Part shown: piece by piece, positions 13,825 to 20,303 of the stretch
How positions within the stretch are numbered: position 1 is the stretch's first letter
How the letters are laid out: each line of letters starts with the position of its first letter
Assembly (NCBI GenBank): GCA_029261155.1
Contig: JAJDBW010000067.1
Coordinates: 1 to 45,594, forward strand
Source of the DNA: Nitrospirota bacterium
Lineage (GTDB): Bacteria > Nitrospirota > Nitrospiria > SBBL01 > JAADHI01
Direction: 5' to 3'
Length of the DNA: 45,594 nucleotides
The notes under the pieces: generated by a model
Told to the model about the DNA's origin: nothing
What the model saw: the letters and a program-made list of their open reading frames with translations, nothing else
The model's database searches: none
Program-made: the position numbers and the translations under genes

Positions 13825-14505
13825 ATGAGATCACTCTGGATTGGAAAATCGCCAGGTCTGGCAGCGCATAGGCAGTCCCCGAATGGCTGGATTGCATACC
13901 TCGCCGTCACCTTAGCGTTATTTTCGGCCCAAAACGTTTGGGCCGAAAATAACGCTACCGATTTAATGCATAAAGCACGCAGCCTACAAAGCGAAGACAG
14001 TCTCCTTTCGGTTTTCGGCACGACGCTTCAGTCGATAAAAGAAGGAGATTGGGAGACGGTCCGAAGCACGATCAAGAAGATTGATCCTCAAATCAAAGAC
14101 CATGCGAAACGATTTGATAAAGATTTAAAACCTATGATCACAGAAGCGGTAGCCTCTAAAGATCCCAACTCAACGCTTAGACATTTAGCGCACACAATCT
14201 TTCTCGGGATGAAATTTCAGTTCAGCGTCATTATTAAAACCCAAATCGACGACTATCTGGATTCCAAGGCTCGACTTGATCTCGCGCATCGCTACTACTC
14301 GGTAATTTTATCGGGGAATGTCAGGAGAAAAGATTCCAAAATACACCGCGGCATTGAGGAACAGTTTACATTGGCCGAAGCCGCTCTAGGAAACCCCGGA
14401 ATCGATATTTTATTGCCAGAATTTCCACCCGATTTAGAAAGTTTTCAGAAAGCTATAAAAAACATTGAAATAGAATTGTTGCGCGTCTACACCTTCATAA
14501 GTTAA
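13825..14505 (+). CDS. Exported protein of unknown family, paralog 1
   Basis: This 226-residue protein has a long N-terminus ending in a signal peptide (WIAYLAVTLALFSAQNVWA, cleavage after VWA). The mature part is soluble, helical and about 180 residues long, with the run HLAHTIFLGMKFQ near residue 130 and ARLDLAHRYYSVILSGNVRRK near residue 150-170. The gene at 14790 encodes a clear paralog sharing the (A/T)-T-D start, A-H-x-x-F-L-G-M, Y-Y-x-x-(I/V)-L-(S/A)-G-N-(V/I)-(R/K)-R-K, and the A-L-G-N ending. I do not recognise the family. A perfect palindrome overlaps the signal-peptide cleavage codons. It precedes a membrane-anchored GGDEF-EAL protein, so a sensory or ligand-binding role is possible but inferred. 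Confidence 0.7.
   Translation: MRSLWIGKSPGLAAHRQSPNGWIAYLAVTLALFSAQNVWAENNATDLMHKARSLQSEDSLLSVFGTTLQSIKEGDWETVRSTIKKIDPQIKDHAKRFDKDLKPMITEAVASKDPNSTLRHLAHTIFLGMKFQFSVIIKTQIDDYLDSKARLDLAHRYYSVILSGNVRRKDSKIHRGIEEQFTLAEAALGNPGIDILLPEFPPDLESFQKAIKNIEIELLRVYTFIS
13913..13957. repeat. Perfect 45-bp palindrome inside coding sequence
   Basis: Two 21-bp arms (13913-13933 and 13937-13957) are exact reverse complements around a 3-nt centre, ACG. The arms begin TAGCGTTATTTTCGG and run to CCCAAA at the centre. They cover the codons for the end of the signal peptide (LALFSAQNVWAENNA), so both strands encode nearly the same peptide (ALFSAQ..WAENNA). It would form a very stable hairpin in DNA or mRNA. Confidence 0.9.
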
Positions 14506-14789
14506 TCGGATGAGGGCAAAACACAAAACTTTAACTGGAGAAACCTGGCATCTCTCTTGAAACGCTCAGAAACAGTTTTTTTGACGATTAGAAAAGGGTG
14601 CATAGGTTTTTTCCAAAAAGGAGTTTCACGCTGGACCGTCTCAAATACTTTTCACAGAATAAGGGGATAGACGACCGCACCCACTTGATTTGACCTCCCC
14701 GACCACCAAAAGAAGAGCGCGTCGCAACGAAATTCCGTTCCACCTTTATTCAGGAACAATCGGTAGAAGAAATTGGTGAAGAAAGAAAA
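14506..14789. other. Intergenic region between the two paralogs
   Basis: These 284 bp contain no convincing gene. There is a T-run after a purine-rich stretch near 14573-14583, and the sequence immediately before 14790 (GAAGAAAG) can serve as the ribosome-binding site of paralog 2. A separate promoter for paralog 2 is possible but not identified. Confidence 0.4.
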
Positions 14790-15419
14790 ATGAAGAAACT
14801 ATTCATTGTAGCCGGATCTGTCTTTATATTTCTGGGAGGAATATTAGGACTACTTTGGGCTGAAACAGCCACCGACTTCATTCGACAAAAGCAGGGAAAT
14901 ATCGTTGAAGACCCGCTAATCCTAGCGTTTAAAGAAAGTCTTGCCGCGAGCAAACTGGATCTTTGGGAAGAGGTCGATAACATCCTATCAAATATTTCAC
15001 CAGCGATACAAAGATACACCGAAAAATTTGGGGTCGATCTAAAAGCCGGTATACAGAATGCCGTCTCTGACCGGAATAAAAACAAAACCGCCAAAATTTT
15101 CGCCCATGTGGTGTTTTTAGGCATGCGAGATAACTTTGCAGCAGCGACAACCCACATAAACAACTATACGTCAGCCCTTGCTTACCTAAAGATAGCCCAA
15201 ACCTACTATGATCGTGTTTTGGCGGGTAACATCAAGCGAAAGAAGCCCGCAGTCCATTTTGAAATCGTTCGGCTATTTGCACAGGCAGAGTTTGCGCTTG
15301 GAAATTCGAATAGCTCCGAGATTAATGAGATTTCACCTGACCTAAAGCTATTCTCATCCTCAATAAAAAAAATCGAAGCGGGTGTCCGAACCGTTTACAC
15401 CTATTTTGACACAAGGTAA
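14790..15419 (+). CDS. Exported protein of unknown family, paralog 2
   Basis: The 209-residue product has a standard signal peptide (MKKLFIVAGSVFIFLGGILGLLWA, cleavage after LWA). Its mature part aligns along its whole length with the product of 13825-14505. Shared landmarks are the T-D-(F/L) start, AHVVFLGMRDNF near residue 110, KIAQTYYDRVLAGNIKRKKP near residue 135-155, FAQAEFALGN near residue 170 and the VYTYF end. The pair arose by tandem duplication and has since diverged strongly. The PAS-GGDEF-EAL gene starts 31 bp downstream, so this gene and the signalling gene probably share a transcript. The family is not recognised and no cofactor motif is visible. Confidence 0.75.
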   Translation: MKKLFIVAGSVFIFLGGILGLLWAETATDFIRQKQGNIVEDPLILAFKESLAASKLDLWEEVDNILSNISPAIQRYTEKFGVDLKAGIQNAVSDRNKNKTAKIFAHVVFLGMRDNFAAATTHINNYTSALAYLKIAQTYYDRVLAGNIKRKKPAVHFEIVRLFAQAEFALGNSNSSEINEISPDLKLFSSSIKKIEAGVRTVYTYFDTR

Positions 15420-15450
15420 TAAGAAAGGTTGTCCAAAGGAACGACTCAGA

Positions 15451-18417
15451 ATGGCCGCGACAAAAAACAGCACCAAGCCCTTTCGTGCATGGACCCTACG
15501 CCAAAAACTGAGGTCATGGTTTTTAATTGTAGCGCTCATCCCCATGTTGGTCATCCTTATAATTTCTCTGAGTTTCCAGGCCGATCAGTTTCGGAAGGAA
15601 ATTGGGGAACGGTTAAAAGACAATCGTCAAGGTCTCGCCATCGAGCTTCGCGAAATCGAGGATCGCCTCATTGATCACAGCAAACGAACCGCTGTACAAG
15701 CCATCCTCCTTGGAACCGTTGCCTTAAATAACAGGGAGACCCTTGAAGATCTGCTAAGTAGTTATCTGAAGTTGAGTAACGTACACCTATTTGGCGTTTT
15801 CGATAAGAACGGCAAGCCGGTTTTAATTCTCCAAAAAAAAGGAGCAGAAAACTCCGAAAATAATTTGGTTCCTGTCATTGAGCCAAGCCTTGATTTGGAT
15901 TCCAATCCTCTTGTCAATCTCTCAAAAGACGCTGCTCTAGAGAGTGCCCCGCGACCTCACTTAGGAGAAAACGAGTTCAGCTTTGATGATGTAAAAACCG
16001 ATGACGCTCAGGACCTTATGTTTAGCCAGGAGGTCTCAAAGGCATCGGCGAGACGTGTACAGGTCAAAGCCCTACCGCAGGACATAGTTGCCAAAATCGC
16101 ATCACATGGAAGCACGGTCACCCGGACATTACGTCTGGATGGTGTCTTGAGTTCGGTCTACGTCTCGCTTATATTCGGTGGCCAACAAATCGGAATATTA
16201 CAACAAGGGTTCCTCCTAGACCAATCCTTCGTAGACGCATTGGAACTGAGAACGGGCCTAGAAGTCGCACTGATCAACGACAAAGGGGAAAAGATTGTCT
16301 CTAGCTTACCGGAGCTCCAATCCCTTTCTATCGATAAGGGACGATCTCGAGTCGCCGAAGAACGAATCGACCAGGTGGATTACCTCTTCACCCTTCTTCC
16401 TTTTGGCGCAGAAGACGGATTTAAACAAGGCGGCATCGCGATCTTTCAGTCCTTGGAAAATCTCTATTCTGAGAAGGAGAAAATAACGATCCTTTTTATT
16501 GTCATATTCGGCGTAATCGCAGTCGGGGCGCTTCTGATCAGTTCATTTATTGCGAGTTCCTTCAGCCGTCCCCTCCTAAGCCTGGCCAAAACAGCCAACA
16601 GCATTGCCTGCGGAAACTTCAATGAACGTGTTCGAGTAAAGAGCGAGGATGAAATCGGACAACTTGCCAATTCATTTAACGAAATGACATCCTCGTTGCA
16701 AGTGTCAAGAGAGGCATTGGTTACGGCAAAGGAATATACCGACAACATCCTTAAATGCATGCTCAACTCCCTGATCGTCGTCTCCCAGGACGGTAATATC
16801 CAAACCGTCAATGCAGCAACATGTGCATTATTGGGTTATCAAAAACACGAGCTGATCGGACAGCCGAGCAGTAAGATTTTTTCCGTCAAACTCCCCACAA
16901 CTGGCGTTGCATTGGCCGAAGCGTTCCAAAAAGGGGTTTTACAGGATATCGAAACCACATACCTTTCAAAAGATGGACATAAGATTACTGTGTGGTTTTC
17001 GTGCACGATAATGCACGATCATGCGAATAATCTCGAAGGCATTCTCTGTGTCGCCCAAGATATTTCCGAACACAAAAAAAATATCGCACGCTCCCACTAT
17101 CTGGCGAATTACGATCCTTTGACCGATCTGCCCAATCGTATCCTATTCATGGATCGACTCAACCAAACCATCCATCGTTCAATTAGGAGAAACCGTCACG
17201 CTGCCATAATGATGCTCGATCTGGACCGCTTTAAAAACATCAACGACACCTTGAGCCATGCCATCGGCGACTTACTTCTACAAACCGTATCCGAACGGCT
17301 CAGGCGCTGCGTACGAGAGAGCGATACCATCGCTCGTTTTGGCGGCGACGAGTTTGCCTTCATCCTAGACGATATTGAGCGCCCGGAAGATGTCAGCAAA
17401 ATTGCAAAAAAAGTATTGCAAACCTTCGAGGAACCGATGACTTTAAGGGGGCACGAACTTTTCATCACCACCAGCATTGGCATTAGCCTCTACCCCACGG
17501 ACGGCACAAACGCCGAATCCCTCTTGAAAAATGCCGATACCGCCATGTACCGTGCAAAAGAACAGGGCAGGAACAACTATCAACATTTCTCGGCCGACAT
17601 GGACCTCAGGGCGCTGGAATATCTCACCCTGGAAACAAATCTTCGGCACGCCCTCGAACGGGGAGAAATGGTCCTTCATTATCAGCCCATGGTCGAAACG
17701 AAAACAGGAAAGATTATTGGGGCCGAAGCACTTGTACGGTGGATACACCCGGACTTAGGACTGATTCCGCCCTTACGATTTATTCCCCTCGCCGAGGAAA
17801 CCGGCCTGATTGAACCGATTGGAAATTGGGTTCTCAAGACCGCGTGCACACAAAACAAGGCTTGGCAAAACGAGGGATATCCCCCCATGCGCGTTGCGGT
17901 TAACCTTTCGGCTCGCCAATTTCAAAATAAAATGTTTTCCAGTATCGTCAATCGGATCTTGATGGAAACCCAACTCGATCCATCGTATCTGGAATTGGAG
18001 CTGACAGAAAGCATTATCATGAAAAACGCAGAGTCGACGATCGAAACATTACGTGAATTCAATGGACTGGGCATCGACATCTCCATCGACGACTTTGGCA
18101 CGGGTTATTCCTCCCTCAACTACCTAAAACGGTTTCCGGTGAATACCTTAAAAATAGACCGGTCTTTTGTCCGTGATATTGCAAGCGATCCGGACGATGC
18201 CGCCATCACACGAACGGTCATCGCAATGGGGCACAACCTTAATCTCAAAATCGTGGCAGAAGGTGTCGAAACGGTCGAACAGCTCGAATTTCTTCGTGAG
18301 ATGCAATGCGACACCATTCAGGGATACTACTTCAGTAAACCTTTGCCCGCTGAGGAACTTACAAAAATCCTGAAAACAGGTAATATCCTCCCACAGCAAG
18401 TGCCAGACAATCGCTAG
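15451..18417 (+). CDS. Membrane PAS-GGDEF-EAL c-di-GMP protein with periplasmic sensor
   Basis: From ATG 15451 (AAGGA upstream) the protein has 988 residues. Order: TM1 (about 23-43), a roughly 300-residue periplasmic sensor, TM2 (about 345-367), HAMP (368-425), PAS (424-545), GGDEF (549-715), EAL (about 735-980). The GGDEF motif RFGGDEF is intact near residue 631. It is preceded by RESD, an RxxD inhibitory I-site at the right distance. The EAL half keeps GAEALVRW, LELELTES, IDDFGTGYSSL, and AEGVET. Both synthesis and breakdown of c-di-GMP are therefore possible, with the balance set by the sensor. The sensor fold is not recognised. A GTG frame extends 23 codons upstream into paralog 2 but lacks a good site. 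Confidence 0.92.
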   Translation: MAATKNSTKPFRAWTLRQKLRSWFLIVALIPMLVILIISLSFQADQFRKEIGERLKDNRQGLAIELREIEDRLIDHSKRTAVQAILLGTVALNNRETLEDLLSSYLKLSNVHLFGVFDKNGKPVLILQKKGAENSENNLVPVIEPSLDLDSNPLVNLSKDAALESAPRPHLGENEFSFDDVKTDDAQDLMFSQEVSKASARRVQVKALPQDIVAKIASHGSTVTRTLRLDGVLSSVYVSLIFGGQQIGILQQGFLLDQSFVDALELRTGLEVALINDKGEKIVSSLPELQSLSIDKGRSRVAEERIDQVDYLFTLLPFGAEDGFKQGGIAIFQSLENLYSEKEKITILFIVIFGVIAVGALLISSFIASSFSRPLLSLAKTANSIACGNFNERVRVKSEDEIGQLANSFNEMTSSLQVSREALVTAKEYTDNILKCMLNSLIVVSQDGNIQTVNAATCALLGYQKHELIGQPSSKIFSVKLPTTGVALAEAFQKGVLQDIETTYLSKDGHKITVWFSCTIMHDHANNLEGILCVAQDISEHKKNIARSHYLANYDPLTDLPNRILFMDRLNQTIHRSIRRNRHAAIMMLDLDRFKNINDTLSHAIGDLLLQTVSERLRRCVRESDTIARFGGDEFAFILDDIERPEDVSKIAKKVLQTFEEPMTLRGHELFITTSIGISLYPTDGTNAESLLKNADTAMYRAKEQGRNNYQHFSADMDLRALEYLTLETNLRHALERGEMVLHYQPMVETKTGKIIGAEALVRWIHPDLGLIPPLRFIPLAEETGLIEPIGNWVLKTACTQNKAWQNEGYPPMRVAVNLSARQFQNKMFSSIVNRILMETQLDPSYLELELTESIIMKNAESTIETLREFNGLGIDISIDDFGTGYSSLNYLKRFPVNTLKIDRSFVRDIASDPDDAAITRTVIAMGHNLNLKIVAEGVETVEQLEFLREMQCDTIQGYYFSKPLPAEELTKILKTGNILPQQVPDNR

Positions 18418-19916: not shown

Positions 19917-20303
19917 ATGGGCGCAAAAAAAGAAGTCGTCGAAAAATCAGGAATTAATCGCAGACAACATCCCCGACCTTTCCTCGTGCTGGAAATTAAG
20001 GGTACGCATTCCAATAAAATTTTCCTCGCTTATGCAGAAAATGTAAGCAAGGGCGGACTCTTCCTTAAAGGAAAACAAGCCCTTAAAATCGGTGATCAAT
20101 TCCCCATCGAATTTGTACTGCCTGATAACAAAACGACGGTACGCTGTATGAGTGAAGTGGTTTGGAAAAAAAAGTACGATCAACCAGGGCTCAACCCAGC
20201 CGAAGGCATTGGCATTAAATTCGTCGATATGGAACCCGCTCAAAAAAAAGTGATTGGCGATTGGGTCGACAAGGAAGAAGAAAAAACCGCGCAGAATCAA
20301 TGA
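19917..20303 (+). CDS. PilZ domain c-di-GMP-binding protein
   Basis: The protein is 128 residues and is one PilZ domain with short flanks. The two c-di-GMP-binding motifs are present: RRQHPR (RxxxR) near residue 19 and ENVSKGGLFL ((D/N)xSxxG) near residue 42. The strand EGIGIKFVDMEP matches the C-terminal part of the domain. Such single-domain PilZ proteins act as cytoplasmic c-di-GMP effectors. AAGGA precedes the ATG, and the gene follows rpsR by 12 bp, so it is likely expressed with the S6-SSB-S18 operon. The PAS-GGDEF-EAL protein 2 kb upstream is a plausible source of the ligand. Confidence 0.9.
   Translation: MGAKKEVVEKSGINRRQHPRPFLVLEIKGTHSNKIFLAYAENVSKGGLFLKGKQALKIGDQFPIEFVLPDNKTTVRCMSEVVWKKKYDQPGLNPAEGIGIKFVDMEPAQKKVIGDWVDKEEEKTAQNQ

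Follow-up and report, generated by a model that had tools for sequence, protein, structure and literature searches.

What are two homologous exported proteins doing directly before a membrane-bound GGDEF-EAL sensor? The question arises from the window, by which we mean the whole analysed stretch of 45,594 nucleotides from a Nitrospirota bacterium, where three genes follow one another:

Positions 13825-14505, plus strand: exported protein A, 226 amino acids, of a predicted all-helical family, carrying SGNVRRK.
Positions 14790-15419, plus strand: exported protein B, paralog of A, 209 amino acids, carrying AGNIKRK.
Positions 15451-18417, plus strand: the sensor, 988 amino acids from its ATG, with a transmembrane segment, a predicted double-Cache periplasmic domain, a second transmembrane segment, HAMP, PAS, GGDEF (with I-site) and EAL.

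The original prediction saw in A and B two homologous secreted proteins of an unrecognised family, the second lying 31 bp from the sensor gene, and all of this was borne out. The signal peptides end at NVWA/ENN in A and LLWA/ETA in B, leaving mature parts of about 186 and 185 residues, and the two proteins share 36% identity over 187 aligned amino acids (E 8e-37). A and B are separated by 284 bp without any intervening gene, a point that had been missed. Neither has a match above cut-off in Pfam or NCBIfam, and 16 aligned family members show no consistent match in these databases. Resemblances of B to RhoGEF (Pfam, 0.0058) and of A to moonraker (0.13) were rejected, as they fall far under the cut-off and differ between members; matches to PDB sequences (designed helical bundles, apolipoprotein, IP3 receptor) were discarded as reflecting helix composition. 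The AlphaFold2 model of B is all-helical, with a mean pLDDT of 82, and most invariant residues of the family are aromatic or are Ala, Gly or Asn.

In the sensor, Pfam identifies HAMP, PAS, GGDEF (E 5e-53) and EAL (E 4e-80) domains. The I-site and GGDEF motif (RESD-TIARF-GGDEF) and the EAL motifs (EALVRW, NLSARQF, ELTES, DDFGTGYSSL and AEGVET) can be read directly in the protein and are intact, as had been proposed. The periplasmic region, at first left unclassified, has a double-Cache fold according to its AlphaFold model (mean pLDDT 67.5 overall, mostly about 76-91 per 10-residue block in the folded periplasmic part), which matches dCache chains such as 3lie, 2p7j and 5wbf with E-values of 2e-7 to 1e-5. 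A PilZ-domain protein, a possible c-di-GMP receptor, is encoded 1.5 kb further downstream, at 19917-20303, with a ribosomal S6 gene and an SSB-like gene between it and the GGDEF-EAL gene.

Is this arrangement found elsewhere? The same genome holds a second copy of the module, likewise overlooked at first, on contig C53, comprising A2, a 370-amino-acid porin, B2 and a sensor. Including C53, a cassette of A and/or B, porin and sensor occurs in this genome and in six other Nitrospiria genomes, with the orders A-B-porin-MCP (G014, inside a chemotaxis cluster), B-porin-MCP (G015), A-porin-MCP (G004 and G002), A-broken B-porin-MCP (G006) and A-porin-PAS-GGDEF-EAL (G019). The recurrent linkage that had been anticipated thus holds with respect to a periplasm-sensing protein, but the homologs are mostly not beside GGDEF/EAL genes, the outcome that was to count against the original prediction: among the seven module loci with known output, five sensors are MCPs and two, in the window and G019, are GGDEF-EAL proteins. 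The frame of the C53 sensor (L005:3488-4375) stops after 250 amino acids, 135 bp short of the contig end and with no continuing frame, as either a broken gene or an assembly edge would produce. The B gene of G006 (L025:6890-8648) is frameshifted, its C-terminal part continuing in frame into the porin gene (a 464-amino-acid ORF), and may be a broken gene or a sequence error.

The porins of C53, G014 and G019 match Porin_O_P (PF07396) with 21.5-30.6 bits, against a cut-off of 20.9. Close porins (E<1e-200), close exported proteins and motif-bearing sensors occur in one identical set of 7 genomes out of the 267 of the class, a co-occurrence that in part restates their physical linkage. A, porin and sensor show correlated protein distances over a small set of six loci (r 0.79-0.87, permutation p 0.02-0.04), which is consistent with joint inheritance. 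The window locus itself has no porin; since the only close porin of that genome is on C53, it could serve the window sensor only in trans.

Sensor and porin have a short acidic motif in common. In the window it is located as follows:

Positions 15850-16041, plus strand: predicted disordered insert in the double-Cache domain, sensor residues 134-197.
Positions 15964-15993, plus strand: GENEFSFDDV, the acidic F-x-F motif (residues 172-181), which matches the N-terminus of the mature porin.
Positions 16012-16035, plus strand: putative second, weaker copy DLMFSQEV, residues 188-195, recognised by eye.

The mature porin starts with this motif (EDDEFTFGDVF; more generally (E/D)DEFTFGD(V/L)F, with variants DGDFTFEDVF and EYEFAFGDVF), placed just ahead of the first strand and with F32, F34 and D36 invariant. 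F-x-F is present in all eight sensors and all seven porins. It is the sole well-conserved feature of the disordered insert, and its two Phe account for two of the 12 invariant columns of the entire sensor input domain. The sensor versions include NEDDFSFDDV in C53, EEDDFLFEE in G004, GEGFIFGP in G019 and QDDDFSFGED in G002, and two copies each in G015 (DDDFTFDV and DDRFSFDV), G014 (EEDFTFDI and KDTFTFDG) and G006 (EDDFIFDV and GDDFTFES). Motif-like copies number two per sensor in the five loci with B and one in the three A-only loci, a count from few, non-independent loci in which the second copy of the window is degenerate. The motif of the window sensor sits in a low-confidence segment (pLDDT<50) within the dCache fold, as expected of a docking peptide.

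In 106,922 amino acids of locus ORFs there are 15 matches to [DE].F[STALI]F[DEG], every one of them in a module sensor or porin, and shuffled inserts carry it with a probability of 0.0009-0.017 each; as the motif is short and the pattern was fixed after inspection, these figures describe the motif and do not test it. The window copy, NEFSFD, fails this strict pattern and has the same core. A strict DNA version of the motif finds 1-9 matches per genome and is therefore not unique to the module; the other matches listed lie in apparently cytoplasmic (non-exported) proteins or in unlikely frames.

An AxA site directly precedes F-x-F in six of the eight sensor inserts (L005, L020-L025; for instance SSAYA-EEDFTFD) and resembles the signal-peptidase junction of the porin. 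Because of these sites we considered a recent gene conversion from porin DNA into the sensor, and rejected it: judged by eye, the codons differ in two loci. The likeness of the sensor and porin motifs may stem either from an old transfer or from convergence.

Two genomes reveal what happens to the sensor when its partners are gone. A, B and the close porin have no match in G013, a single-contig genome (98% complete), or in G017 (three contigs, 86% complete). Both retain the sensor, placed in the chemotaxis cluster that also contains it in G014; it is 64% identical to the G014 sensor and has a 47-amino-acid gap exactly where the two motif copies would lie. The sensor of G015 is only 60% identical to that of G014, yet it keeps both copies, and its locus has B and the porin. 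In the sensor tree, G013 and G017 are nested within the motif-bearing sensors (support 96/95), so that the absence of the motif is a loss. A single lineage lost the insert as well as the partners, in what counts as one evolutionary event; such a co-loss is what a docking role of the insert predicts.

Our leading reading, which we put forward tentatively, is that A and B are periplasmic adaptors docking on the motif in the tail of the porin as well as in the insert of the sensor, so that the sensor reads the state of porin or adaptor. As soluble periplasmic proteins they would recognise an acidic F-x-F-(G/D) peptide, which the mature Porin_O_P-type porin displays at its free N-terminus and which the dCache sensor mimics in its disordered insert. 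The adaptor would partition between the two, and the inner-membrane sensor would register how much porin is present or what state it is in, or the same of a solute passing through it, along with the ligand of its own dCache domain. The fused output would then pass the signal on, to c-di-GMP turnover for the window sensor and to chemotaxis in the majority of relatives, with the window sensor relying on the porin of the sister locus. Of this, the cassette, the conserved shared motif and the joint loss are observations, while the physical contacts, the adaptor role and the direction of signalling are inferred. It is possible, if somewhat doubtful, that the insert arose by mimicry of the partner porin's N-terminal tail, and that the helical adaptors read the balance between the two for chemotaxis or c-di-GMP control. 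A basic patch, GN(I/V)(K/R)RK, is confined to the close exported family, the one that coexists with the acidic motif, a contrast that amounts to a single clade split.

Could A and B bind a solute instead? In this rather unlikely alternative, which continues the original prediction, they would bind a solute supplied through the porin and would attach to dCache in the manner of LuxP on LuxQ, the shared motif being secondary. Such a role fits the cassette, in which an exported protein accompanies porin and sensor, and also the dCache fold, the LuxQ periplasmic domain (3c38) being among the Foldseek matches of the sensor model. However, A and B are small and all-helical, the B model has no match to a periplasmic-binding-protein fold, the family alignment presents no conserved polar ligand pocket, and the porin-like motif and the loss of the insert are left unexplained. 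With no conserved ligand site and a docking-like motif in sensor and porin, a plain ligand-binding partnership is no longer the most favoured role. In systems of the LuxP-LuxQ type, as in the module, an exported soluble partner is encoded beside the membrane sensor; unlike in these systems, the partner here is a small helical protein without a known binding-protein fold, and a linear motif is shared with a porin.

Remote members of the family bear on another alternative. A profile scan of genome contigs found four Nitrospirota MAGs, while a single-sequence scan gave no matches; the close relatives with names are Candidatus Manganitrophaceae, Nitrospiria and Nitrospirota MAGs. A wider profile extends the exported family to 18 of 270 Nitrospiria genomes, in 13 of the 56 genera sampled. 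By our own tally of 21 loci, an outer-membrane porin or a TonB receptor is encoded in about 17, and about 15 contain a gene for a chemoreceptor, a histidine kinase, a GGDEF-EAL protein or an HD-GYP protein, both counts leaving out the weakest and most distant group (L079-L082, HE(V/I)VG proteins, E 1e-11 to 1e-6). One locus (L071) has the order porin, exported protein, dCache histidine kinase, and two (L072, L073) lie in chemotaxis clusters with an adjoining MCP. In four others (L026, L029, L077, L078), remote homologs adjoin porins and the sensor gene is absent. The exported proteins of L079-L082, with HE(V/I)VGxVTPLMIHMKR.., adjoin a different OMP-like protein (AHILEPLGTEIAATPPRGR..), and one of these loci contains a c-type cytochrome-like gene. 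The output domain is interchangeable and the envelope partners are the stable part of the module. The novelty and the linkage first proposed for it stand, but the partners that stay constant are the porin and the dCache sensor and not GGDEF-EAL in particular.

The homologs that adjoin porins where the sensor gene is absent would suit A and B as factors of porin assembly or gating, as would the position of the porin motif directly before the first strand. The motif would then bind the barrel or another envelope component, and the insert would tether the sensor near the porin, with A and B not acting as readers. We regard this as unlikely: motif copy number tracks the number of exported paralogs, not that of porins, and the insert would need to span the periplasm. 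It is quite improbable that A and B are EfeO/Algp7-like metal carriers in a module sensing Fe or Mn, as the best, though weak, Foldseek matches of the B model (EfeO, EfeM and Algp7, imelysin-like helical periplasmic proteins; E 0.1-0.8, probability 0.5-0.97) and a Candidatus Manganitrophaceae MAG among the close relatives might suggest, since the TM-score to the query is just 0.30-0.38, Pfam, NCBIfam and PDB sequences (EfeO, EfeM and Algp7 chains among them) give no EfeO/imelysin (M75) match for the family, no invariant His/Glu/Asp site of the HxxE type is seen in A1 or A2, and the His of AH..FLGM is replaced by Gln in several members.

How does the proposed adaptor system compare with known ones? 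The module sensor has the fold and the TM-dCache-TM-HAMP-output architecture of dCache receptors (MCPs, histidine kinases, GGDEF-EAL proteins); unlike them, it has a long disordered insert with a porin-like acidic F-x-F, and linked exported helical proteins and a porin. In FecA-FecR, the N-terminus of an outer-membrane protein serves as the periplasmic signal to an inner-membrane protein, much as proposed here; the module differs in having a porin in place of a TonB receptor, a short peptide in place of a domain, and an MCP or GGDEF-EAL protein as sensor, and inspection of the ORFs in the module loci turned up no sigma or anti-sigma genes. In DegS/RseB, a short OMP peptide is likewise read by an inner-membrane system, whereas the module would use an N-terminal tail and not a C-terminal YxF, has no protease, and carries a copy of the peptide in the sensor.

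The module is a real, recurrent and apparently undescribed envelope-signalling system; we found no description of it in the literature. The exported family is new, and the 13 genera in which it occurs belong to lineages known almost only from metagenomes. How information flows from porins across the periplasm to inner-membrane receptors is poorly known, and a peptide common to a porin and a receptor, with a dedicated adaptor family, is a concrete and cheaply testable mechanism. Our results suggest that the cell uses a peptide at the tip of a porin to inform its motility and biofilm controls about the outer membrane.
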